A stretch of DNA of 20,176 nt, taken from positions 1-20,176 of IMG/VR virus record IMGVR_UViG_3300046804_000399. One strand, 5' to 3'. The notes under the pieces were generated by a model, which was given only the letters and a program-made list of their open reading frames with translations, did no database searches and was not told where the DNA came from. Every line of letters begins with the position of its first letter. Position 1 is the first letter of the stretch. The stretch is from a virus. This document shows positions 360-20,176 of the stretch, piece after piece. The position numbers and the translations under genes are program-made.

Positions 360-2639
360 ATGAACGATACGCTAAACAAGACTTATGAGGACTGGTTTAA
401 TACTATTGCCCAATATGACAAGTCATTTCGGGAATGGGAATCAAGAGTACCCCGTATCATTAAGCGTTACCGTGATGACAGCCGTACCCGTAATAACCCT
501 AATGCTCGTTTTAATATCCTTTGGTCAAATGTTCAGGTTATCAAGCCTGCTATCTTTGCAAGACTTCCCCGCCCCGATGTAAGCCGTAGATTCCGTGACA
601 ACGACCCGATTGGTCGTGTAGCGTCAATGATGCTTGAACGGGCGTTGGAGTATGAGATTGAACACTATTCTGACTACCGCTCCGCTATGGATAATGCGGT
701 TATTGACCGCTTATTGGGTGGGCGTGGCACAGCATGGGTGCGGTATGAGCCACATATTGTTGCCGAACAAAATGACCTAAACACAGGGTTAGCTGGTCAA
801 GATGTGGGCAACGGAATACAGATTACAGAGGATGCCGATGAAGCCGAAACGGAAAACGCTGAACTATTGGAATCGCAAGAACGCATTGAATATGAGTGCG
901 CCCCTGTGGATTATGTTCATTGGCGTGACTTTGGTCATACTGTTGCTCGTACTTGGGAAGAAGTAACTGCGGTATGGCGTAAGGTCTATATGAGCCGCCA
1001 AGCTTTGATTGACCGCTTTGGCGAGGAAGTAGGTGGGCGTATCCCGCTAGATACTAAGCCTGAATCCGACAAATGGGCTACCAAACAAATGGTTGCCGAG
1101 CATTACCAAGCTTGTATATACGAAATTTGGGATAAAGAGCAAGGCAAAGTCTTTTGGATTAGCAAGTCGATGGGCGAGATTCTTGATGAAAAAGATGACC
1201 CATTGCAGCTAGAGGGATTCTTCCCATGCCCTAAACCTTTGTATGCAACCCTAACTACAGACAACCTTGAGCCTGTGCCTGACTTTGTTCTGTATCAAGA
1301 CCAAGCCAAACAGTTAGATACCCTTGCAGACCGCATAGATGGCCTTGTAAACGCTTTGAAAGTGCGTGGTGTATATGACGCATCTGAGTCCGCATTAGCC
1401 CGCCTATTCTCTGAGGGCGAGAACAACGCCTTAATTCCTGTTAAGAATTGGCAAGCCTTTGCCGAGAAACAAGGTATGCGTGGTGCGATTGACCTTGTTG
1501 ACTTAGCCCCGTTTGCTCAAGCTTTACAGATGGCTTATCAGGCGATGGAGCAAGTCAAGGGCCAAATCTACGAGATTATGGGTATTGCCGACATTCAGCG
1601 TGGTCAAACCGACCCCAATGAAACGCTTGGCGCACAGATTATTAAGTCCAATAATGCTAGTGGTAGGCTTAAATACCTACAACACGCAGTTGTGGATTTT
1701 GCTACTGAACTGCTCAAAATTAAGGCGCAGATTATTTGCAAGCACTTTACTGAGGATACGATTGTCAAGATTAGTGGTGCAATGCAACTTAGCCCACAAG
1801 ACCAACAGTTAGTGCCACAAGCCCTACAACTGCTTAAGGATGAACCCGCTAAAAACTTCCGTATTGAAGTCACTAGCGATTCGATGATTTACCAAGACGA
1901 GCAACAAGAAAAGGCTGACCGTGTTGAGTTCTTAACAGCAGTTAGCCAGTTTATGAACAATGCGTTGCCGATTGCTACTAACGCACCTGAACTAACCCCA
2001 TTACTTATGGAAATGCTTAAATTTGGCGTGACTGCATTTAAGGCTGGAAAAGGCATGGAAGGGCTTATTGATGAAACTGCCGACCAATTTAGAAATCAAG
2101 CTAAAGCGATGGAAGGCCAACCCAAACCACCGCCTGTTGAGGTGCAAAAGATTCAGGCTCAATCTCAAGCTAAGATTCAAGAAATGCAGATGTCAGTTCA
2201 GCTTGAACAGCAGAAGATGGCTGCCGAAATGGAATTGGAAAAAGCTAAACAGGAATATCAAGCACAAGAGAATCAGCTTAAATTCCAACTGGAAGAACAG
2301 CGTAACGCTCAAGAGCGTGAGATGGAGATGAAGTTGGCACAGATGAAGATGATGACAGAGCGCAATACTCAACTCCTATTGGCTTACATTAACAATGGGG
2401 CTAAGATTGAAACCGCCCGCATTTCGGCTGGTGTAGATAGCGGTGAGGGAATAGCCGAGCAATATGACCAAGACGAGAATATGATTCAGAATCTTGAACA
2501 TCCATTAGCCCCAATCGCCCAAGCCATTACGCAAGGCAACCAAGAAATGTCAGCTACACTAGCTGCATTAATTGACAGACTAAGCCAACCTAAACAAGTG
2601 GTTCGGGATGAAGCAGGCAAAATTATCGGGGTTCAGTAA
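360..2639 (+). CDS. Portal protein (P22-type, with C-terminal coiled barrel)
   Basis: A 759-residue protein directly after terL. Its length is close to the P22 portal (about 725 residues). The N-terminal half has the pattern of P22-like portals: an early FNILWSNVQVIKPAIFARLP segment, then VxDRLLGGRG and a run on an aromatic-rich region. Residues about 590-670 are rich in Q, E, K, M and A with heptad character (VEVQKIQAQSQAKIQEM and onwards), as expected for the long helical barrel of P22-type portals. The dodecameric portal is the vertex through which TerL pumps DNA and on which the tail assembles. The start ATG follows the terL stop by two bases; the ribosome binding site is weak (AGG only). 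The stop overlaps the next start as TAATG. Confidence 0.9.
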   Translation: MNDTLNKTYEDWFNTIAQYDKSFREWESRVPRIIKRYRDDSRTRNNPNARFNILWSNVQVIKPAIFARLPRPDVSRRFRDNDPIGRVASMMLERALEYEIEHYSDYRSAMDNAVIDRLLGGRGTAWVRYEPHIVAEQNDLNTGLAGQDVGNGIQITEDADEAETENAELLESQERIEYECAPVDYVHWRDFGHTVARTWEEVTAVWRKVYMSRQALIDRFGEEVGGRIPLDTKPESDKWATKQMVAEHYQACIYEIWDKEQGKVFWISKSMGEILDEKDDPLQLEGFFPCPKPLYATLTTDNLEPVPDFVLYQDQAKQLDTLADRIDGLVNALKVRGVYDASESALARLFSEGENNALIPVKNWQAFAEKQGMRGAIDLVDLAPFAQALQMAYQAMEQVKGQIYEIMGIADIQRGQTDPNETLGAQIIKSNNASGRLKYLQHAVVDFATELLKIKAQIICKHFTEDTIVKISGAMQLSPQDQQLVPQALQLLKDEPAKNFRIEVTSDSMIYQDEQQEKADRVEFLTAVSQFMNNALPIATNAPELTPLLMEMLKFGVTAFKAGKGMEGLIDETADQFRNQAKAMEGQPKPPPVEVQKIQAQSQAKIQEMQMSVQLEQQKMAAEMELEKAKQEYQAQENQLKFQLEEQRNAQEREMEMKLAQMKMMTERNTQLLLAYINNGAKIETARISAGVDSGEGIAEQYDQDENMIQNLEHPLAPIAQAITQGNQEMSATLAALIDRLSQPKQVVRDEAGKIIGVQ

Positions 2640-5347
2640 TGGCAATTACAATTAAGCACAAAAAAGTATCGACCATTCTTGATACTGATGATACAAGCCT
2701 TGTACGCCCATCCGATTGGAACGATACCCATGACTTGACGGGTACTATTTCTGTTTCTAATGGTGGTACTGGAGCAGATAACGCAACAGACGCAACCAAC
2801 AATTTATTGCCTACCCAAACAGGGCAAAGCGGTAAATATTTAAGCACTGATGGCACAAATACTCAATGGCTAACCGTGCCATCTTCAGGCGGTGGCTCAT
2901 CGGTTTCTTATTATTTAAACGGTGGCGTAAGCCAAGGAACATTTGGTGGTAACACTTATTACCAAATGAACAAAACGCCTGTTACGGCAACCCCCGCAAA
3001 TTTTACTATTGCCACTAACGGATACATTGCGCAATTTATTACTGATGTTAATGACCCATCTTTGCTTAATATTCCAGCAGGTAATTGGAATTTTGAGATG
3101 TATTTTAGTGCATCGTCAGGCGGTGGTAGCCCAAGTTTTTATGTAGAACTTTATAAATATAACGGCACTACTTTTACACTTATTTCAAGCGGTTCAACCA
3201 GCCCCGAATCAATTACAGGTGGCACAGTTAAGGATGTTTACATATCCGCTTTAGCAGTTCCTGCAACAACTTTAGCTTTAACTGACCGATTAGCCGTCAG
3301 AGTTTATGTAAACAATAGTGGCAGAACGATTACGCTTTACACGCAAGACAATAATTTATGCCAAGTAATAACCACATTTTCTACAGGAATTACGGCTCTT
3401 AATGGCCTTACTGCTCAAGTTCAAACATTTGCGACAGGAACTACAGGTACTGATTTTAATATTTCAAGTGCAACATCAACTCATACTTTTAACTTACCAA
3501 CAGCATCAGCGTCAAACCGTGGTGCTTTAAGTTCCTCAGATTGGTCTACATTTAATGACAAAGCTAACGCTTTTACCTATACGACTAACTACATTCCGTA
3601 TGGTCAAGGCACAACCACGCCATTGCAATCGGCTAATTTACAGTTTAATGGCACAACCCTTACAGCCAACGATATTACCGACTCATCCCTAACTGCTGGG
3701 CGAGTTACCTACGCTGGCACAGGCGGTAATTTAAGAGATGCGTCTAACTTTACTTACGATGGCACAAACTTAGTAGCTGGTGCTATTCAGAATACCCCGA
3801 TTGGTTCTACGACAGCCAATACAGGTAAATTTTCCACATTAGAAACCACTGGAACAAGCACTTTAGGAACAGGCTCTAGCCAATATATACAAGTTGAAGG
3901 TGGTGCAACAGCAGTTCTATTATCTGCCCAAGGTGCTGGTTCAAATATTCCATTAGCTTTACAGCCTAAAGGAACAGGCGCAATTCAAGCACAAGCTACT
4001 ACATCTACAAGTGCTGGTGGTAATGCTAGGGGTACTAATGCTGTTGATTGGCAGACAAGTAGAGGAAATGCAGTCAATGTGGCTAGTGCAACTGGAAGTG
4101 TTTTAACAGGTGGATTAAGTAACACTTGTAGTGGGGCGGCAGCATTTGTAGGTTCTGGACAAAGTAATCAAGCAACAGGACTTTATTCATTTGTTGGAAG
4201 TGGTATAGCAAATGTGGCATCAGGACAAAGTTCAGCTTTATGTGGTGGTGCTAGCAATACTGCATCTGGTTATTACGGATTTGTTGGTAGCGGTCAATCC
4301 AATTCAACAACTTCTAATTCTGCAGTAACAACTCAAACTGGCACAATGAATGGCACTACTGCCGTAACTTTGTCAGGTTCAAACGCAAATATTAAAGTAG
4401 GTCAGTTAATTACTGGTACAAGTATCACAGGTTTCCCTTCTACTTATGTAGCCGCCATCAGCGGAACAAGCCTTACCTTATCCCAAGCCGCATCAGGCTC
4501 ATCCACCTCAACCCTATCTTTCTTTACTCCTCATGGAGTAGTAGTAGGCGGTGGTAATAACCAAGCTACAGGTGCTTACTCATTTATCGGTGGTGGTGGT
4601 GACGCTGGTACTGCGGCTAATAGGAATGTGGCTAGTGGGGATTGGTCTGCTGTAGTAGGTGGTAGAGCTAATCAGGCTACAGGAAATTCTGCGTTTGTAG
4701 GAGCTGGTGGATGGGATGGTACATTTTTAGGGGGTAATACTGCTAGTGGTTCTTATTCATCAGTTGTAGGTGGTTTTTCTAATACGGCATCTGCCAATGG
4801 TGGATTTATTGGGGGTGGTCAAAATAATACAGCCAATGGTATTCACTCATTTATGGGTGCTGGGGCTTATGGCACTGCTAGAAGCATAGTTGGAAATCAT
4901 GTGTTTTCTGCTTGTAATCAACCATTGGGAGCTAGCCCTGGCATTTCCCAATCAGCTTTACTCGTTTTGGCAGTACAAACCACAGACGCTACAGCTACAG
5001 CATTACGCTCTAACACTTCAGCCGCAGGAACAACAAACCAAGTAATACTACCTAACAACTCTGCTTACTTCTTTACTGGAGAAGTTATATCAGGAGTAAC
5101 TGGCGGTGGCAACACCAAAGGCTGGACTATTGAAGGTGTAATTAAACGAGGTGCTAATGCGGCATCTACAGCCTTGGTCGGAACTCCTACAATCACATCC
5201 ATGTACGCTGATGTTGGTGCGGCAACATGGGCTATTGCAGTTACAGCCGATACGACTAATGGCGGTTTAAGAGTTACCTTTACAGGACAAGCTAGTACAA
5301 CTATTCGTACAGTTTGCCAAATCCGCACAACCGAAATGACTTACTAA
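2639..5347 (+). CDS. Tail fibre/spike-like protein with YadA-like beta-roll repeats
   Basis: A 902-residue, G/S/T/N/A-rich protein. The N-terminus (MAITIKHKKVSTILDTDD, then SDWNDTHDL) is a common opening of fibre proteins in environmental phages and probably mediates virion attachment. Residues about 485-555 and 632-740 hold repeats of the form GGxxNxASGxYSxVGxG, resembling the trimeric left-handed beta-roll of YadA-like adhesin heads. A 65-70-residue domain (about 562-632) interrupts the repeats. The C-terminus (about 760-902) is beta-rich without a recognised enzyme motif. The likely role is host or surface binding as a trimer. Its place between portal and scaffold is unusual for a fibre. 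It starts in the portal stop codon (TAATG). A decoration fibre on the head is an alternative to a tail fibre. Confidence 0.75.
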   Translation: MAITIKHKKVSTILDTDDTSLVRPSDWNDTHDLTGTISVSNGGTGADNATDATNNLLPTQTGQSGKYLSTDGTNTQWLTVPSSGGGSSVSYYLNGGVSQGTFGGNTYYQMNKTPVTATPANFTIATNGYIAQFITDVNDPSLLNIPAGNWNFEMYFSASSGGGSPSFYVELYKYNGTTFTLISSGSTSPESITGGTVKDVYISALAVPATTLALTDRLAVRVYVNNSGRTITLYTQDNNLCQVITTFSTGITALNGLTAQVQTFATGTTGTDFNISSATSTHTFNLPTASASNRGALSSSDWSTFNDKANAFTYTTNYIPYGQGTTTPLQSANLQFNGTTLTANDITDSSLTAGRVTYAGTGGNLRDASNFTYDGTNLVAGAIQNTPIGSTTANTGKFSTLETTGTSTLGTGSSQYIQVEGGATAVLLSAQGAGSNIPLALQPKGTGAIQAQATTSTSAGGNARGTNAVDWQTSRGNAVNVASATGSVLTGGLSNTCSGAAAFVGSGQSNQATGLYSFVGSGIANVASGQSSALCGGASNTASGYYGFVGSGQSNSTTSNSAVTTQTGTMNGTTAVTLSGSNANIKVGQLITGTSITGFPSTYVAAISGTSLTLSQAASGSSTSTLSFFTPHGVVVGGGNNQATGAYSFIGGGGDAGTAANRNVASGDWSAVVGGRANQATGNSAFVGAGGWDGTFLGGNTASGSYSSVVGGFSNTASANGGFIGGGQNNTANGIHSFMGAGAYGTARSIVGNHVFSACNQPLGASPGISQSALLVLAVQTTDATATALRSNTSAAGTTNQVILPNNSAYFFTGEVISGVTGGGNTKGWTIEGVIKRGANAASTALVGTPTITSMYADVGAATWAIAVTADTTNGGLRVTFTGQASTTIRTVCQIRTTEMTY

Positions 5348-5356
5348 GGAGAAATC

Positions 5357-5623
5357 ATGGCATTAAAGCTCGCTGTTCAGACCCAATTTGGCGTACCAGC
5401 CCCCGAAGCCTACGCTCGAATCACTAACTTTTTTGGAACTAAAGACCAAATCCAAGTCCAAGTCGCTATTCATTACGATGAGTCGGCAAGGCATAGCAAT
5501 ATGGCTACGGTCAAGGAAAATGCTCATTACATCAATATGGAAGATTTAAAAGGCGATTTAATTCCCGCCATTTATGAGGTTTTAAAAACATTTAGCGATT
5601 ATGCTGGTGCAGAGGACTGCTAA
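5357..5623 (+). CDS. Small conserved-type phage protein, function unknown
   Basis: An 88-residue protein with a strong ribosome binding site (AAGGAG at 5346-5351, five bases before ATG) that overlaps the stop of the fibre gene. I do not recognise a family. It is mixed alpha/beta, soluble, slightly acidic, and lacks a signal peptide, transmembrane segment or cysteine cluster; a single Cys is the last residue. Its translation appears linked to both neighbours: the following gene starts on the base after this stop. It may assist the fibre or the head, but that is only a guess from context. Confidence 0.75.
   Translation: MALKLAVQTQFGVPAPEAYARITNFFGTKDQIQVQVAIHYDESARHSNMATVKENAHYINMEDLKGDLIPAIYEVLKTFSDYAGAEDC
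5611..5616 (+). promoter_or_regulatory. Ribosome binding site that supports the TTG start at 5624
   Basis: AGAGGA ends seven bases before TTG at 5624, which comes directly after the TAA stop of the previous gene. No ATG or GTG lies in frame near the start of the conserved-looking sequence, so this site decides in favour of TTG. Confidence 0.65.
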
Positions 5624-6103
5624 TTGTTTCAAACCGCATTTCAAGTCTTAGCGTTTCAAACCAATGCGTTTCAGATAGGACAAATACCCCCTAATCCTTA
5701 CACTGACACGCATGACGGTTTCACGCCCGAAGAAATTAGGCGGGCTAAAAACATAGACCGAAAAATACGGGAAAAAGAATTAGCATTATTAAAAGCCCAA
5801 CGAGCAGACCGTGAAGCTCGCAAGGCCAAGATTCGGGATTTAGTTGACCCGAAGCCTAAAAAAGTTGCAAAACAGCAACAAAATAAATTACAATATATTC
5901 AAGAGGTTAAGGCTGATATACCGTCAGTTGATACTACAGAACTAGAGCAGTCTATCGCCTACCTTGAGAACCAAAGAAACAACCTGCTAAATGCGGTTGC
6001 TAATAGGCAAAAGGCAACACGGTTAAAAGCCGAACTCGCCATCCTAGAAGCTAAACGCCTAGCAGAACTAGATGACGAGGAAAGCATATTACTACTAATG
6101 TAA
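5624..6103 (+). CDS. Coiled-coil phage protein with AFQ repeats, TTG start, function unknown
   Basis: A 159-residue protein starting with TTG immediately after the previous stop, supported by AGAGGA seven bases upstream. The N-terminus repeats a short FQ-containing unit (FQTAFQVLAFQTNAFQIG); such AFQ openings occur in small virion-region proteins of phages. Residues about 35-150 are highly charged and helix-forming (K, R, E, Q, A, L) with few breaks, so one or two coiled coils are likely. No catalytic motif, signal or membrane segment is visible. The end overlaps the proposed start of the glycosyltransferase gene, indicating translational coupling. Function is not assigned. Confidence 0.75.
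   Translation: MFQTAFQVLAFQTNAFQIGQIPPNPYTDTHDGFTPEEIRRAKNIDRKIREKELALLKAQRADREARKAKIRDLVDPKPKKVAKQQQNKLQYIQEVKADIPSVDTTELEQSIAYLENQRNNLLNAVANRQKATRLKAELAILEAKRLAELDDEESILLLM
6077..6084 (+). promoter_or_regulatory. Ribosome binding site ahead of a possible ATT start
   Basis: GAGG at 6077-6080 (within GAGGAAAG) ends seven bases before ATT at 6088-6090. It is the only good Shine-Dalgarno-like site near the beginning of the open frame of the glycosyltransferase-like gene. It lies inside the preceding coding region. Confidence 0.5.
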
Positions 6104-6987
6104 AAGCCTTATACAAAGCCGCTTACGACCATTTACACGCAGGGCGGTACGAAGCTGGTTTTCGGTTATTTGAATACCGTTGGCATGAAGAAATTATGGG
6201 GGAACAAACAACCCCAACTCGCCCTATTTTGCCTATTCCTGTATGGCGTGGGGAATCCCTATTAGGCAAGTCCATTGTGGTGCAGATGGAGCAAGGCTAT
6301 GGCGATGTATTACAGTTCTATCGCTTTCTACCCGCATTAAAAGTTTTAGGGGCTAAGAAACTGATTGTTTTGCAAGAATCTTCATTGCACTACCTTCTTG
6401 GGCAGATGGAATGTATTGATGTTATTACCAACGCCACCGATGAAGGCGAAGCCTTTGAAGCGGATTATTGGATTGGCTCAATGTCTTTGCCCTACTATAT
6501 TTCATGCAGCTTACCTTATGTTAAAAGCCTATTTCCGATTACTACGCAAAAGATTGTCGGCTCAGAAGGTTATTTGGAAGCTACGCCTAGCAATATACCG
6601 CCAAAAATAGGGGTTAATTGGGAAGCGTCAAATCGTGGACTTTACTACATTAAATCCATTGATTACAAAGAAATGCTCAAATTGACAGGGGATAATTGCT
6701 ATTCTTTTAACCCCAAAACTGAAGCTTTATTTCATCCCTTACCCAACGATGGTTGGAAGAAAGATTGGCTAAAAACCGCCCAACACATGAAAGCCTGTAA
6801 AGGCATTGTGACTGTGGATACGGGTACTGCTCATCTTGCTGGGGCGTTAGGAATTAAGACGATTGTGCTTTTGCCTAAAGAAGAATTTGTATGCTGGCGT
6901 TGGAAAAACGGGCGTTGGTACGATTCGGTGGTAACTTTAAGACCCCATGAATACGACAAAGTGCTTGAGTTAATAAGGAGAATGTGA
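6088..6987 (+). CDS. TPR-linked GT9/heptosyltransferase-like protein (probable ATT start)
   Basis: The protein has features of TPR-linked GT-B glycosyltransferases of the heptosyltransferase (GT9-like) type. A segment near residues 65-85 reads IVVQMEQGYGDVLQFYRFLP, and the C-terminal donor-site part contains VDTGTAHLAGALG (about 243) followed by W-rich CWRWKNGRWYDS. The first ATG is at 6196, but the frame is open upstream to 6076. That upstream part encodes a fitting TPR-like lead (YKAAYDHLHAGRYEAGFRLF, then EYRW), which normally precedes this domain. No ATG, GTG or TTG exists there; ATT at 6088 has GAGG seven bases upstream, giving 299 residues. The role is probably glycan modification of a virion or host surface component, which is inferred. 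Starting at 6196 would give 263 residues without the TPR lead. Confidence 0.72.
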   Translation: MTTNVKALYKAAYDHLHAGRYEAGFRLFEYRWHEEIMGEQTTPTRPILPIPVWRGESLLGKSIVVQMEQGYGDVLQFYRFLPALKVLGAKKLIVLQESSLHYLLGQMECIDVITNATDEGEAFEADYWIGSMSLPYYISCSLPYVKSLFPITTQKIVGSEGYLEATPSNIPPKIGVNWEASNRGLYYIKSIDYKEMLKLTGDNCYSFNPKTEALFHPLPNDGWKKDWLKTAQHMKACKGIVTVDTGTAHLAGALGIKTIVLLPKEEFVCWRWKNGRWYDSVVTLRPHEYDKVLELIRRM

Positions 6988-7361
6988 TGATATGCCCTAA
7001 GTGTGGCTACTCTGAAAGTAACCATGTAGAAACTAAGTCAGACAAGGAAAAGTACCTAGATTTTTGGGGATTCACGCTTGGTACTCCTGAAGCCGAAGAA
7101 GCATGGAAACAAAAGCAAGAAATGACCGCTAAAGAAGCCCCAATCGTTATGTCAGATATTGAGGGTTATGTTTCTCAGGTTGATGGCACATGGATTAAAA
7201 GCCGAAGTCACCACAGAGAACACCTTAAACAGCACCGAATGATTGAACTAGGCAACGATGTGCCAATGCAACATAAGCCTGTTGAATTAAGCCGTAAAGA
7301 ACAAGAAACCCGTAAACGCAAGATTGCCGAGCTTGCTTACGCCAAACTAAACTATCGTTAA
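6987..7361 (+). CDS. Small CxxC protein, function unknown
   Basis: A 124-residue protein beginning ATG ATA TGC; the ATG shares its A with the TGA stop of the previous gene (TGATG). AAGGAG (6975-6980) is six bases upstream, so this ATG is favoured over the in-frame GTG at 6984, which is only three bases from the site. The N-terminus has one CPKCGY knuckle typical of zinc ribbons, but no second CxxC follows, so a metal site would need His residues or a dimer. The rest is charged and mostly helical, ending in a K/R-rich stretch (SRKEQETRKRK). Position just before the scaffold gene suggests a head-related role, without direct proof. Confidence 0.75.
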   Translation: MICPKCGYSESNHVETKSDKEKYLDFWGFTLGTPEAEEAWKQKQEMTAKEAPIVMSDIEGYVSQVDGTWIKSRSHHREHLKQHRMIELGNDVPMQHKPVELSRKEQETRKRKIAELAYAKLNYR

Positions 7362-7370
7362 GGAGCAATT

Positions 7371-8456
7371 ATGGCAGACCGCAAAGAGATGTTAGAAGCA
7401 GCATTGGCAGAAGTTGAAACCCCACAAGATGAGGGTAAACCCGTAGATACAGAGGAAAAACATGAGGAAGTGCAAGCCGAAGTTTCTAAAGACGAACCAG
7501 TACGGGATGAAAAAGGTCGCTTTGTCGCAAAAGAGGAAACGCCTACAGAGGAAGCAAGCGTTGAAGATATTGCAGAAAATGAGGTTGCAACCGAACAGCC
7601 CGAAGAACCAAATGCGGAAGTTGATATACCAAAGCCTACAACTTGGAAGAAAGACCTTTTACCTTTATGGGATAAGATAGCTAAAGGGGAAACCTTAACT
7701 AAAGAAGAAAGCAAAAAACACCTTGAATACCTTAACCAACGAGAAAACGAGTTTAAAAAAGGCGTTAGCGTATATAAAGCGGAAGCGGAACGAGCAAAGG
7801 CACTTGAAGAAGCGATTAATCCATTCGTACCTGAACTCCAAGCACAAGGAATCCACCCCGCAGCGTGGATAAATAATTTAGGTCGGGCGCACATGATTTT
7901 GACCAAAGCCCCATACGACCAAAAAGTGCAAATGTTTCATAGACTTGCACAAGATTATGGAGTAAACTTAAACGCAGATGCTCAACCAACTGCTGAACAA
8001 GCACCGACTGATGCTTACACTCAACAGTTAATGCAACAACTTTATCAAGTTAATCAAGAGGTTAGCACGATAAAGTCTAGGTTTGAGCAAGAAGAACAAC
8101 AACGCTTGGCTGGTGAAATCGAGCGTGTAAGAAGTAACAAAGAGCGGTTTCCGCACTTTGACATGGTTAGGGAAGAAATGGCTCAACTACTTGAGCTAGG
8201 TAAAGCACCCGACCTTGAAACGGCTTATGCCAAAGCTGTACGGCTAAACGATGAAGTTTGGGCGATGGAACAGGAACGACTCCTGTCTGACGCAAAAAAA
8301 CAAGCATCTCAGGCCCAGCAAGTAGCACGAGCCAAAGCAACGGCTGTTAGTCCAAAATCCGTTACTCCTAACGGAACTCAGGCAAAAGTCGAAGCAAAGG
8401 ACAGGCGTTCTCTGTTAATGGCGCAAATGACCGAAGCAGAGAGCGGTAGGCTTTAA
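7371..8456 (+). CDS. Capsid scaffolding protein
   Basis: A 361-residue, strongly acidic, E/K/A/Q-rich, largely helical protein immediately upstream of the capsid gene, as scaffolding proteins are in P22-like phages. The first 85 residues are disordered-looking and acidic (repeated EE, ETP, EV), followed by a central helical part (about 90-260) and a basic, Q/A-rich C-terminus (KKQASQAQQVARAKA, about 305-320), which suits the coat-binding end of scaffolds. TAAGGAG overlaps the previous stop and sits five bases ahead of ATG, indicating strong translation. It is expected to guide coat assembly and then leave the procapsid. The call rests on composition and position; sequences in this family diverge strongly. 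Confidence 0.82.
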   Translation: MADRKEMLEAALAEVETPQDEGKPVDTEEKHEEVQAEVSKDEPVRDEKGRFVAKEETPTEEASVEDIAENEVATEQPEEPNAEVDIPKPTTWKKDLLPLWDKIAKGETLTKEESKKHLEYLNQRENEFKKGVSVYKAEAERAKALEEAINPFVPELQAQGIHPAAWINNLGRAHMILTKAPYDQKVQMFHRLAQDYGVNLNADAQPTAEQAPTDAYTQQLMQQLYQVNQEVSTIKSRFEQEEQQRLAGEIERVRSNKERFPHFDMVREEMAQLLELGKAPDLETAYAKAVRLNDEVWAMEQERLLSDAKKQASQAQQVARAKATAVSPKSVTPNGTQAKVEAKDRRSLLMAQMTEAESGRL

Positions 8457-8478: not shown

Positions 8479-9692
8479 ATGGCTTTTGCTAACTCAGCAA
8501 TCACCGATATTATCGCTACCACCATTCAAAGTCGTAGCGGTGAATTGGCTGATAACTTAACGCAGAACAATGCGATTCTGCAAAGACTTAACTCAAAAGG
8601 CAATGTACGGCCTTTCTCAGGTGGTAATGTAATCCTTAATGTTGGGGTCACTCTGAATTAAAACTCAGATGTGAGAATTCTCTCTAATTGACTTGGAACT
8701 CCCGAAGGGGACAACAAGGGGCAAGCGAAAGCAGCCTGAACGACTAAACGAGAGAACACCTGAAAAGGTGAAGCGATAGTCTGACCTTTGGCATAACTTG
8801 TAGTACAAAGAAGCCAAAGAGTGTAGCGGAACAGAAACGACTACACCGAACTGTTGGGAGTTCGTAACAACCGAGCGAGGAAATTATGTACAATGATACG
8901 TCCACCAATAACGCTAATTCTTATAGCGGTTACGAAGTATTGAACATTGCTCCTGATAGCCCAATCTCGGCTGCTCAGTACAAGATTGCTCAATACGCTG
9001 CTGCTGTAACGATGAGCGGTTTGGAAATGCTCCAAAACTCAAGCAAAGAAGCAATCATTGACTTGTTAGATGGTCGTATGCAAGTTTCTGAAGCTCGCCT
9101 TTTGAACCGCATTTCGGGTGACCTTTATGGTGATGGTACTGGTAACGGTGGTAAGAACATTGACGGTCTAGCTGCCGCAGTTTCTACTTCCCCAACCACA
9201 GGTACTTACGGTGGTATTAACCGTGCAAACTGGTCTTTTTGGCAGAACCAAGTAACTACTGGTTTAACCTCTACCAACACCCTTGCAAAAATGACTGAAG
9301 CTGCCATCAAGCAGGTTCGTGGCACAGACAAGGCTGACCTTTACATTGCTGGTAACACCACATATCAGTATTTTGTAGGTGCATTGCAAGCAATTCAGCG
9401 TATTACTACCGAAGAATCGGGTGCTGCTGGTTTTGCATCCCTTAAGTTCTACGGTGGCGGTACATCTGCTGATGTAATACTCGGTGGTGGTATTGGTTCT
9501 CAAGAAACTGCAACTTATATGTATCTCTTGAACACCAACTACATTTTCTTTCGCCCACATAAAGAGCGTAATTTCGTACCGATTGGTGGTGAGCGTCAAG
9601 CCATCAACCAAGATGCGATTGTTAAGCTCTACGGTTGGGCCGGAAATTTAACTACCAGCAACGCTCAGTTGCAGGGTATTTTGACCACCTAA
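8479..9692 (+). CDS. Major capsid protein, split by a group I intron
   Basis: Two open segments belong to one gene. Exon 1 (8479 to about 8636) encodes MAFANSAITDIIATTIQSRS and onward to GGNVIL, the N-terminal arm seen in many podophage coat proteins. Exon 2 (about 8876-9692) continues EEIMYNDTSTNNANSYSGYE, then the HK97-type coat body. Unspliced, the frame hits TAA at 8659-8661. Joining 8636 to 8876 gives one 975-nt frame (324 residues) and rebuilds GGNVIL-EEIMYND across the junction. Joining 8640 to 8880 gives the same length with N for the first E. It follows the scaffold gene and has AAGGA upstream. The ATG at 8886 in exon 2 lacks the N-arm and is not considered a separate start. The coat forms the icosahedral shell. 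Confidence 0.9.
8637..8875 (+). ncRNA. Group I self-splicing intron, ORF-less, in the capsid gene
   Basis: The 239-nt insert folds by hand into a group I core. P1: exon CCUU (8634-8637) with GGGG (8644-8647), splice after U8636 in a U.G pair. P2: UCAC-UCUGA (8648-8656) with UCAGA-U-GUGA (8665-8674). P3: UUCUCUC (8678-8684) with GAGAGAA (8750-8756). P4: CUUG (8692-8695) with CAAG (8715-8718). P5: UCCC with GGGA (8700-8711). P6: GGGC (8719-8722) with GCCU (8734-8737), capped by GC-GAAA-GC. P7: GACUA (8742-8746) with UAGUC (8777-8781). P8: CACCU-GAAA-AGGUG (8757-8770). Peripheral helices: CUUUGGC/GCCAAAG (8786-8792/8813-8819) and GUGUAG/CUACAC (8821-8826/8841-8846). The last base is G8875 and CGA of exon 2 can pair with UUG (P10). 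Ends could shift by 4 nt (8641-8879). No homing ORF fits inside. Confidence 0.92.
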
Positions 9693-13438: not shown

Positions 13439-13873
13439 GTGAGAACAGTTATTACTGAAAATCAGCGATATTTGGGGGAATGGCTGGTTCGGATTCTTAA
13501 CTTTCCCCTACCTAAAACCACCCAATGTATAGGGCAATTAAAAGACGGTAATTTGGTAGCTGTCGCTGGTTATACCAATTTCATGCCAAAAGCGTGTGAA
13601 ATTCATATAGGTAGCGTAGGCGAAAATTGGGCTAGTAAAGATTTTTTGTGGGCAGTCTTTGACTATCCCTTTAATAAACTTGGACTTAGCGTTATACTAG
13701 GGCAAATCTGTGCTGATAACACGGATGCCCTAAAGTTAAACCGACATTTGGGCTTTAAGGTTGTCGCTGAAATACCTGATGCCCACATGAGTGGTGATTT
13801 GGTCATTATGGCAATGCGTAAAGAGGAGTGTCGGTTTCTTAACATCCGATGCCCCTTAAACAGAGGAGAATAG
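13439..13873 (+). CDS. GNAT-type N-acetyltransferase-like protein
   Basis: A 144-residue protein starting with GTG directly after the previous TAG; GGTGGAG lies eight bases upstream. The order of elements fits GNAT folds: an exposed beta strand (LVAVAGYTNF), then IHIGSVGEN, a helix (FLWAVFDYPFNKLG), and NTDALKLNRHLGF, which matches the usual N-x-x-x-x-x-L-x-x-x-L-G-F end of the domain. The canonical Q/RxxGxG/A acetyl-CoA loop is not clear, as in many phage versions. GNAT genes of this size are often found between tail and ejection genes of podophages. The substrate is unknown; a virion or host protein is possible. Confidence 0.72.
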   Translation: MRTVITENQRYLGEWLVRILNFPLPKTTQCIGQLKDGNLVAVAGYTNFMPKACEIHIGSVGENWASKDFLWAVFDYPFNKLGLSVILGQICADNTDALKLNRHLGFKVVAEIPDAHMSGDLVIMAMRKEECRFLNIRCPLNRGE

Positions 13874-18101: not shown

Positions 18102-18138
18102 AAACGGGTCAGTTAATGAGTTCGATTGTATTGTCTAA
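18094..18138 (+). pseudogene. Relic 5' end of a fibre gene (MSRNGS start), cut off by the HNH cassette
   Basis: AGGAG (18083-18087) lies six bases before an ATG that encodes MSRNGS and then leaves the fibre sequence (VNEFDCIV, stop at 18136-18138). The intact fibre gene at 18743 starts MSRNGSGTYSLPAGNP. The six residues are identical but four of the five codons after ATG can be compared as AGT/TCC, AGA/CGC, GGG/GGC changed and AAC (with TCA) unchanged. The break is at 18111/18112, one base before the HNH stop codon. It is read as the original gene start, separated from its body by the insert. Only 18 bases match at protein level, so chance is not fully excluded. Confidence 0.7.
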
Positions 18139-18691
18139 TTCTATGACAAGCTCTGCACCTTCTCCATCCTTTGTAAATATGGGTGTTTTCTGCCGTAAAT
18201 TCATGCCCATTTTTGCAATGGGTCATGGCTCGTTTTTTAGCCCCGCTTGCTTGACCGCCAAGCGTAAGACCGCTTTTAAAAACTTTGCGTTTTTTATCTA
18301 CAAGTTCATCAAAAGTTTTTGCAGTTTTGGCTCTATTAACAATAGTGTCGTATTTAAAACCATATTTTTGAGCAATATCGCAAACAAGGTATTGAACATT
18401 ATCAATCGTTATTTTTTTAGTAATTCTGCGATTTCGTTGTTGTTCTTTACGACTAGACCATTTGCAATTTTGTGGAGCGTAATCGCCATTATTATCAATT
18501 CGGTCTATGGAATAACCTTGCGGTCTATCGCCCATATCGGAAACAAATTGATTAAAATTGTTTATCCATTGGTCGCAAACTTTAATACCTCTGCCACCGT
18601 AATTTGGGTAATGTTTATTGTTAAGGTTATAGCATCTTGCCTTCATGCCTTGCCAAACTTGGTAAAGAGGGTGTGGATTTTTAAACGGCAT
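18113..18691 (-). CDS. HNH homing endonuclease with HTH and zinc-finger parts
   Basis: A 192-residue protein on the strand opposite all other genes. Residues about 1-95 are an HNH nuclease of the phage homing type: YQVWQGMKARCYN, YGGRGIKVCDQW, SIDRIDNNGDYAPQNCKW, then SSRKEQQRNRR. Residues about 97-140 look like the helix-turn-helix DNA-binding part of such enzymes (IDNVQYLVCDIAQKYGFKYD then TIVNRA). The end has CKNGH and CRACH, a C-H-C-C zinc-binding set. AAAGGAG is six bases before ATG and an extended -10 is upstream, so it is expressed on its own. Expected to nick or cut a specific phage DNA site and spread its own gene. It interrupts the junction between ejection and fibre genes. Confidence 0.93.
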   Translation of the reverse strand: MPFKNPHPLYQVWQGMKARCYNLNNKHYPNYGGRGIKVCDQWINNFNQFVSDMGDRPQGYSIDRIDNNGDYAPQNCKWSSRKEQQRNRRITKKITIDNVQYLVCDIAQKYGFKYDTIVNRAKTAKTFDELVDKKRKVFKSGLTLGGQASGAKKRAMTHCKNGHEFTAENTHIYKGWRRCRACHRIRQYNRTH

Positions 18692-18742: not shown

Positions 18743-19477
18743 ATGTCCCGCAACGGCTCAGGCACATATTCGCTACCAGCAGGTAATCCCGTAGTTACAG
18801 GCACAACCATTGCAAGTACATGGGCTAATAACACACTTAGTGATATAGCTACTGCTCTTACTGGCTCATTGGCAAGCGATGGTCAAACCCCAATGACGGG
18901 TAACCTAGACGCAAATAGTAACAAAATTGTTAATTTGGCTACCCCCACTTTATCAACAGACGCAGTAACTAAGTCTTATGCTGATGCGTTAGTCGGTGGT
19001 TCAAGCGCAGGCTCATTTACTAATCTAACGGTTACGGGCACTACAACCCTTGCTACATCCTTAACAGGCGTATTAAAAGGAACATCAGGTGTGGTATCTA
19101 CAGCCACGGCTGGAACAGATTATGTAGCCCCAGCAACTGCTACTAACTTTACTGCTCAACAATACTTTGGTAATGTGGCTTTAACCGATGCCGCTACGAT
19201 TGCATGGGCAGCGAATACGGCTCAAGTTGCTACCTTTACCTTTGTATCATCTAACCGCACTATGGGCGCACCCACAGGACTTGTAAACGGTGCTTATTAT
19301 GGCCTTGCTGTTATCCAAAACTCAGGCTCAAACACCTTAACTTGGAACGCAGTATTTAAATGGGCTGGTGGAACTGCACCTACCTTATCAACAGCCGCAA
19401 GTGCTAAAGATTACTTTGTATTTCGCTCTGATGGTACAAACCTATACGAGCAAGGTAGAAGTTTGGGGGTTGCATGA
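18743..19477 (+). CDS. Tail fibre protein
   Basis: A 244-residue, T/S/A/G/N-rich beta-type protein opening MSRNGSGTYSLPAGNPVVTG, followed by TIASTWANNTLSDIATALT, DGQTPMTGNLDANSNKIVNL and AVTKSYADAL. These are the common N-terminal elements of phage tail fibre/collar proteins, including the motif family seen around phage fibre attachment domains. The C-terminal half is a compact beta domain (VNGAYYGLAVIQNSGSNTL, ending LYEQGRSLG). AAAGGA is eight bases before the ATG. The first six codons duplicate, with synonymous changes, the relic at 18094. The stop overlaps the next gene (ATGA). Probably a short fibre or adaptor that binds the receptor-binding protein encoded next. Confidence 0.85.
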   Translation: MSRNGSGTYSLPAGNPVVTGTTIASTWANNTLSDIATALTGSLASDGQTPMTGNLDANSNKIVNLATPTLSTDAVTKSYADALVGGSSAGSFTNLTVTGTTTLATSLTGVLKGTSGVVSTATAGTDYVAPATATNFTAQQYFGNVALTDAATIAWAANTAQVATFTFVSSNRTMGAPTGLVNGAYYGLAVIQNSGSNTLTWNAVFKWAGGTAPTLSTAASAKDYFVFRSDGTNLYEQGRSLGVA

Positions 19478-20176
19478 CCCTACCTGTAGTCTTTACTGCT
19501 AATGGAGCGCAAGGTTATAACTTAACCAACTCCCTACGCTTTCGGGCTAGTGCTTCTGCTTATTTAAATAGAACATTTGCTACTGGAAACAGAAGAACTT
19601 TTACATGGTCTGGTTGGCTAAAACGAGGTTCATTAACAGGCAATCAAGCATTAATGAGTCCGTATACAAATGGCACAGGTAGCGGAACTTATGGTGTTCT
19701 TAGATTTGTTGATGGTTCAATAGAATTTTTTGATTACACAAATGGAACATATAATGCTTATTTTTACACTTCAAGTTCGCAATATACATTCCGTGACCCA
19801 TCTGCTTGGTATCATATTGTTTTGGCGGTTGATACTACACAAGCAACAGGCTCTAATAGAATAAAAATATATGTAAATGGCACACAAATAACTGGCACTT
19901 TTTATGCTACACCAACACAAAATTATGATTTGCAATGGAATAACAATTTAGTTAATTACATAGGATATACACCAACTGCTTCTCAATATTTTGATGGCTA
20001 CCTAGCAGAAGTAAACTTCATTGACGGTCAAGCCCTAACCCCATCTTCATTTGGTGCTACATCCTCAACAACTGGTGTATGGCAACCGATTAAATACACA
20101 GGCACATACGGCACTAATGGATTCTATTTACCGTTTACCGATAACTCTGCTCTGACTACATCATCGAATGTGGGAC
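19474..20176 (+). CDS. Fibre/receptor-binding protein with LamG/ConA-like domain (cut by window edge)
   Basis: The frame opens at ATG 19474, overlapping the previous stop (ATGA), and stays open to the end of the window (234 residues), so the gene continues beyond it. After an N-terminal LRFRASASAYLNRTFATGN strand there is a concanavalin A-like/LamG domain of about 190 residues: FTWSGWLKRG, WYHIVLAVDTTQATGSNRIK then IYVNGTQITG, YIGYTP and YFDGYLAEVNFIDGQALTP. These are the strand signatures of the Laminin_G_3 type, common in fibre proteins of environmental phages. It probably binds glycans on the host surface. Whether more such domains or an enzyme follow is not visible. Confidence 0.85.
   Translation, partial: MTLPVVFTANGAQGYNLTNSLRFRASASAYLNRTFATGNRRTFTWSGWLKRGSLTGNQALMSPYTNGTGSGTYGVLRFVDGSIEFFDYTNGTYNAYFYTSSSQYTFRDPSAWYHIVLAVDTTQATGSNRIKIYVNGTQITGTFYATPTQNYDLQWNNNLVNYIGYTPTASQYFDGYLAEVNFIDGQALTPSSFGATSSTTGVWQPIKYTGTYGTNGFYLPFTDNSALTTSSNVG

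Follow-up and report, generated by a model that had tools for sequence, protein, structure and literature searches.

The window analysed here is a whole virus record of 20,176 bases, in which a fibre-like gene and a gene for a glycosyltransferase-like protein (GT) lie among the head genes, between portal and coat. The genes and features needed for what follows are listed below in window coordinates.

5' of the portal gene: end of the terminase gene, named by position
360..2639, + strand: portal (phrog_12082, E 3.8e-177), the upstream boundary of the block
2639..5347, + strand: fibre-like protein of 902 aa, without a Pfam or PHROGs match
5357..5623, + strand: p88 (88 aa), small gene that partners the fibre C-terminus in a cassette, weak match to phrog_18037 (E 1.3e-5)
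5624..6103, + strand: p159 (159 aa), gene of the backbone with a TTG start, whose 3' end holds the presumed ribosome-binding site and start of GT
6077..6080, + strand: GAGG, presumed Shine-Dalgarno (SD) site of GT
6088..6090, + strand: ATT, presumed (AUU) start codon of GT
6088..6987, + strand: GT9-like glycosyltransferase (GT, 299 aa), residues 1-60 being an N-terminal segment and about 61-299 the GT-B fold of the model
6984..7361, + strand: p125, small conserved gene starting at GTG6984 or ATG6987 and overlapping the GT stop (phrog_21669, E 1.1e-4)
7371..8456, + strand: scaffold-like protein, bounding the block downstream and so named because it precedes the coat, its family matches being weak
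3' of the scaffold-like gene: coat, in two parts (phrog_9953, E 6.8e-78)
3' of the coat: SU10-adaptor-like gene (sub-cut-off match), then further virion and tail genes

The original prediction placed a fibre, two small open reading frames (ORFs) and, up to 6987, a GT9-like ORF behind the portal and ahead of the scaffold, and these ORFs are confirmed; closing the block at 6987, however, leaves out p125, through which the block actually runs. The genes had also been described as being all translationally coupled, which is right only in part: portal and fibre have a single nucleotide in common (TAATG), p88 and p159 abut, and fibre and p88 are separated by 9 nt (a gap that holds a GGAG). A GT start at ATG6196 would leave a 92-nt gap after p159, whereas GT read from ATT6088 overlaps p159 by 16 nt. 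A search against NCBIfam returned sub-cut-off matches only.

Viral contigs were scanned three times, with GT, portal and fibre queries, which gave 231 loci in 168 clusters, the relatives per scan being the best 80 of 252, 543 and 218 (and the best 80 of 365 and of 286 in two further scans); clusters are loci joined by shared exact 400-mers, with related contigs remaining across clusters, and the portal-to-scaffold counts take one locus per cluster. Among the matches listed, 61 clusters have both portal and scaffold, and p159 and p125 were found in all 61 of them, GT in 60 and p88 in 10. As p159, GT and p125 lie between portal and scaffold in 60/61 of these clusters (again among the matches listed), the gene order can hardly be a product of chance or an assembly artefact; the portal-to-scaffold locus without GT (L126) belongs to a cluster that also holds a locus (L059) whose contig has GT. 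The synteny comparison that had been proposed as a check thus bears out the order from portal through p159-GT-p125 to scaffold, but does not tie the fibre to GT. Judged from gene order, p159, GT and p125 almost certainly form a backbone joining a variable slot to the scaffold and coat. The slot itself, from portal to p159, is hypervariable, since its 79 distinct intervals (among the matches listed; picked for having p159 and hence uninformative on p159 presence) range from 1.1 to 5.7 kb and hold one to several ORFs, while GT stays; besides L126, three of these intervals are without GT, and they stop at the contig end. In a distant relative (L310, portal at 53%), the portal is followed by a p125-like gene, one more small gene, the scaffold and the coat, and the L310 locus gave no match for fibre, p159 or GT. 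The annotated phage collection held 10 records matching the portal, all below 60% identity, and a GT profile run against cellular genomes had 0/32 candidate contigs confirmed; searching genomes with the coat produced one contig, from a MAG filed as Saccharibacteria, where a binning error is possible.

Within the slot, the fibre gave no match at E<=1 against Pfam and PHROGs and two weak partial matches in the annotated phage collection. Repeats resembling those of the YadA head were noticed in it by eye only. Its N-terminus is matched in 54/79 portal-to-p159 intervals (among the matches listed), and the part behaving as a mobile cassette is the C-terminal one (about residues 428-902). Among the matches listed, and where a fibre locus extends for at least 1.1 kb beyond the fibre, p88 follows the fibre C-terminus in 53/54 clusters; in 40 of these 54, portal, p159, GT, p125 and scaffold all went undetected in the locus, and p88 is still there in 39 of the 40. 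When fibre copies are counted one by one, 62/81 C-termini have p88 within 1.5 kb, and most of those without it belong to earlier copies in tandem fibres. Across the 79 intervals, fibre C-terminus and p88 occur together in 12, both are absent from 65, and p88 stands alone in 2, both from a single cluster in which the fibre match reaches no further than residue 718, at 43%. From this co-occurrence, the fibre C-terminus and p88 can be regarded with near certainty as a portable cassette, found both in the hypervariable slot and in loci where no other block gene was detected, and p88 may well be a partner that assembles or caps the fibre C-terminus. The suggestion that both small proteins are partners of the fibre therefore fits the one encoded at 5357-5623, but not the one at 5624-6103, as p159 is present in 61/61 clusters and p88 in only 10. 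The AlphaFold2 model of p88 is of good quality by its pLDDT (86.3); compared with the PDB it gave nothing usable (best E 0.19), and the best named matches at the top of the list of viral models are uncharacterised phage proteins. No match was obtained for a p88 profile against PDB sequences, nor for p88 in the annotated phage collection at E<=0.01.

As for the enzyme itself, neither the single GT sequence nor a profile matched any PDB sequence at E<=1, and Glyco_transf_9 (PF01075) scored 20.6 bits on the GT of the window, below the cut-off of 22, with 41/44 GT members matching it at E<=0.1 (best 1.6e-5). The AlphaFold2 model is middling (pLDDT 72.5, pTM 0.56, residues 18-26 below 50). TibC is its top match in a Foldseek comparison with the PDB, at TM-scores of about 0.4, while VIA-align gave Z-scores of 11.2 for WaaC (219 residues, rmsd 5.6), 10.2 for TibC and 10.1 for WaaF, other GT-B-type or unrelated chains following close behind (Z 9.5 to 8). 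In this model, residues 61-299 look like a GT9-type GT-B fold. The GT9 part of the original label is thus backed by the fold, which agrees with heptosyltransferase-type GT-B enzymes, though not by the Pfam score; for its TPR part, no Pfam TPR match was found in the GT of the window or the 44 members, a search that a single degenerate repeat could escape. D73, invariant in the 44 homologues, maps to WaaC residue 13 if the alignment-start offset holds, and Asp13 of WaaC is presumably catalytic. A four-cysteine iron finger of the TibC type was not seen, C269 being the sole invariant cysteine among the 44 members. Across 50,697 annotated phage records, GT is matched only by TPR-annotated proteins of Synechococcus phage S-SRM01 and by Marine virus AG-345-E08. 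At the locus itself, GT occurs as two alleles about 50% identical to each other (class 1, that of the window, and class 2, its sister), each found in 14 clusters with a portal at least 88% identical to that of the window; both alleles accompanying portals of this similarity means that the GT locus has been exchanged.

The start of GT also differs from the one originally predicted (ATG6196), as the conserved protein begins 108 nt further upstream, inside p159, where ATT6088, with GAGG 7 nt 5' of it, is the best start. The frame is open upstream of ATG6196 back to a TGA at 6073-6075, and starting at ATT6088 adds 36 N-terminal residues; ten residues before Met37 (L16, H17, G19, Y21, G24, F25, E29, R31, W32 and H33) are invariant in the 44 homologues. 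Substitutions upstream of ATG6196 number 6156, 3745 and 20145 at codon positions 1, 2 and 3, a concentration at position 3 by which this region evolves as coding. Start regions were taken from the in-frame stop upstream as far as the conserved LHxGxY motif, and distinct ones were counted, an SD-like motif being GAGG, AGGA or GGAG 4-10 nt before an in-frame ATT; five motif-less rows were dropped (L022, L253 and L366 being cut short where the contig or locus begins, and L364 and L365 having an in-frame ATG methionine by eye). So defined, an SD-like motif precedes an in-frame ATT in 62/62 class-1 regions (GAGG at 7 nt in 58, at 10 nt in 3 and at 4 nt in 1), and 61 of the 62 have no ATG, GTG or TTG before LHxGxY, the one exception carrying a TTG 15 codons in (L037/L268). 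Class 2 has an ATG in 39/39 regions, as do two outlier sequences (2/2), and no SD-ATT; in 8 of the 39 there is an in-frame ATT, with no SD before it. As a control, 11 other genes were examined for regions in which the open frame offers no canonical start ahead of residue 20, and these amounted to 0/873 vs 76/79 for class-1 GT.

As the start lies within p159, the coding needs of p159 have to be considered as well. Synonymous recoding of p159 ends (2000 runs) kept the SD-ATT in a mean of 15% and a maximum of 9/22, vs 22/22 observed, so the arrangement is not forced by p159 coding. p159 coding does account for some of the SD-ATT signal, namely the 15% retained on recoding. The p159 glutamate codon forming the SD is GAG in 76/77 class-1 genes vs 6/22 class-2 ones, and another class-1 glutamate column is also mostly GAG (68/72). 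The key p159 leucine codon is TTA in 72/77 class-1 genes; in 4/77 it is CTA and the next codon, TTA, restores the ATT, and in L027 it is TTT (Phe), the ATT still being present. In L076, GAGG and ATT are shifted together 3 nt downstream, and in L126, which lacks GT, the ATT is present and GAGG absent (a single case). Anti-SD duplex energies did not separate class 1 from class 2, and the RNA structure around the GT start is weak (-3.5 kcal/mol, 8 pairs). In the GT tree, a branch with 100/100 support has the ATG sequences on one side, and 53 AUU rows and L268 (TTG) on the other; the sequences are related, and the AUU may have had a single origin. The sequence traits of an AUU-initiated gene, i.e., a conserved AUU, an SD at proper spacing and, in 61/62 regions, no canonical start, are all found here, and GT is, on this comparative basis, very likely translated from the AUU at 6088, which lies within the 3' end of p159 and is positioned by the GAGG 7 nt upstream.

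What such a start would be good for is a separate matter. An internal AUU start is found in T4 gene 26. IF3 is described as discriminating against start triplets without a 3' G, AUU included (PMC4611024), and excess IF3 in E. coli as inhibiting both non-canonical starts and re-initiation; infC and pcnB are reported to use AUU, with regulated or reduced expression (PMC1780047), a working AUU start is described for Yersinia rcsD, and a conserved AUU lowers the yield in S. aureus according to PMC13009471. By analogy, discrimination by IF3 against the AUU would lead to GT being made at a low level within the structural-protein operon, and an enzyme, being a catalyst, would not be needed in stoichiometric amounts; we would give such low output from an IF3-disfavoured AUU even odds. 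Going further, the clade-wide AUU and the SD spacing of mostly 7 nt could act as an IF3-sensed throttle on a virion-modifying GT, output rising when IF3 is limiting, an unlikely elaboration that, if true, would make virion glycosylation depend on the condition of the host ribosome pool. A somewhat less than even chance is given to the upstream part being real with the AUU kept merely by the overlap with p159, as a weak start without regulatory meaning: changing ATTA to ATGA would turn the p159 TTA codon, present in most class-1 genes as given above, into a TGA stop, but the sister allele starts with ATG and has a p159 of similar end, and an ATG would be obtainable by changes elsewhere over this divergence. 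Retention by overlap is compatible with the best explanation in everything except the low-expression step. Very improbable is a programmed -1 frameshift producing a p159-GT fusion, with GAGG as the frameshift stimulator, for which the GT frame does stand at -1 relative to p159, with a short, conserved overlap (in an alignment of 17 sequences chosen in one register); against it, a strict X XXY YYZ heptamer occurs within the final 60 nt of 0/77 class-1 p159 genes (strict pattern only), the local ATA, TTA and CTA codons do not re-pair in -1 by inspection, and the sister allele starts GT independently, from an ATG overlapping or beside the p159 stop.

The explanation that we favour overall, with a probability of roughly 0.6, combines the cassette, the backbone and the AUU start with a weakly expressed enzyme glycosylating a virion protein. 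GT would transfer a sugar to a protein acceptor, the donor being ADP-heptose-like only by fold analogy, and the likeliest acceptor would be a conserved virion protein, e.g., p159, scaffold or coat, rather than the neighbouring fibre. GT persists through the free exchange of the fibre, which makes this fibre a less likely target than a host glycan or a conserved acceptor (scaffold, coat, p159 or a tail protein); a conserved protein acceptor, taken as a claim of its own, falls slightly short of even odds. The original prediction had linked GT to the fibre next to it, which is favoured by their adjacency and by TibC, an adhesin-modifying heptosyltransferase, topping the Foldseek list. A specific link is contradicted by free assortment, as p88-type fibres occur with GT class 1 (7 clusters), class 2 (2) and no GT (1, L126), and 51/61 clusters have no p88 at all; WaaC also ranks above TibC in VIA-align, if by about 1 Z unit only. 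GT being kept whatever fibre is present, it is unlikely to serve the neighbouring fibre alone, and specific glycosylation of that fibre seems improbable. GT9 enzymes such as WaaC and WaaF build the LPS core, and WaaC is the top VIA-align match, so GT might instead alter host LPS or another surface glycan for superinfection exclusion or receptor masking; this is rather unlikely given that, in all but one of the 61 clusters, GT has p159 on one side and p125/scaffold on the other, surrounded by structural genes, and that the window shows no second gene recognisable as a surface-glycan gene.

AUU starts are already known, as are GT9-fold enzymes and mosaic fibres; an AUU-started phage glycosyltransferase in a structural operon was not found among the matches listed from the open-licence literature. 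What emerges appears to be a clade of uncultured phages that keeps a GT between its head genes, started at a rare AUU, while neighbouring fibre genes are exchanged freely. To our knowledge, common gene finders consider only ATG, GTG and TTG, so the enzyme is probably annotated at least 36 residues short, or its start missed, across the clade. The locus also offers a many-sequence case of a non-canonical start kept either by selection or by gene overlap, and the occurrence of AUU and ATG alleles at one and the same locus makes these two testable against each other, while the fibre/p88 pair provides a defined cassette for work on fibre assembly and exchange.

Compared with known enzymes, GT shares in its model the GT-B fold of WaaC, WaaF and TibC over residues 61-299, but is only 10-16% identical to them and has an extra short N-terminal segment; TibC is described as a heptosyltransferase modifying an autotransporter adhesin, with a four-cysteine iron finger motif common to TibC/BAHT (PMC4358343). 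The Synechococcus phage S-SRM01 and Marine virus AG-345-E08 proteins match GT residues 53-290 at 24-28% identity, leaving its N-terminal segment unmatched. An N-terminal segment choosing the protein acceptor ahead of a GT-B domain is an idea shared with FlmG, the TPR-GT of Caulobacter flagellin, whose TPR part, as described in PMC7591256, spans 313 residues, whereas the N-terminal segment of GT is about 60 residues long and without a TPR match. The glycans that mycobacteriophages are described as carrying on capsid and tail tube subunits (discussed in PMC12619734) are likened to the present case by theme, without sequence comparison. As for the start codon, infC (encoding IF3) and pcnB of E. 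coli, as presented in PMC1780047, share with GT the AUU start and a low or regulated yield (both of them predicted for GT), but are cellular genes, whereas here a phage enzyme lies in a structural operon with its start buried in the upstream gene. The AUU of Staphylococcus aureus cvfC1 is, according to PMC13009471, likewise conserved across relatives and SD-placed, and lowers the yield; cvfC1 is described there as leading its operon and having an extended SD of great strength, whereas the AUU of GT is accompanied by a GAGG and an overlapping upstream gene.

The coat gene of this virus is interrupted by a 239-nt insert, and the coat flanks on either side of it, once joined, form a single frame of 324 residues; the features considered here are as follows.

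8479-9692: interrupted coat gene (insert 8637-8875)
13439-13873: acyltransferase-like gene (phrog_4470, E 3.5e-36), within the virion gene cluster
18113-18691, minus strand, opposite to the surrounding virion genes: HNH endonuclease gene (phrog_3377, E 1.5e-49)
18743-20176: second group of fibre-like genes, truncated by the window end

The insert resembles a group I intron of small size, devoid of an endonuclease of its own, with P3/P7/P8 pairing seen by eye and a match to Intron_gpI that stays below threshold (21.8 bits vs. 50, E 0.0031); at the gathering score, Rfam returned no match for the insert or in relatives. The site is uninterrupted in 61 of the 69 clusters of related loci, while five carry related inserts at the identical position (L002, L039, L045, L072, L166) and three further ones carry inserts close to it. 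The HNH endonuclease could be a free-standing homing enzyme.

In the second fibre-like set, the first gene shows weak tail-fibre matches and the last encodes a Laminin_G_3 domain (E 4.4e-16); the fibre that follows the portal (2639-5347) is thus probably an additional one. Its C-terminal cassette occurs in tandem copies at loci L163, L182, L194, L206 and L213 on other viral contigs, where p88, the 88-aa partner gene, closely follows the final copy only.
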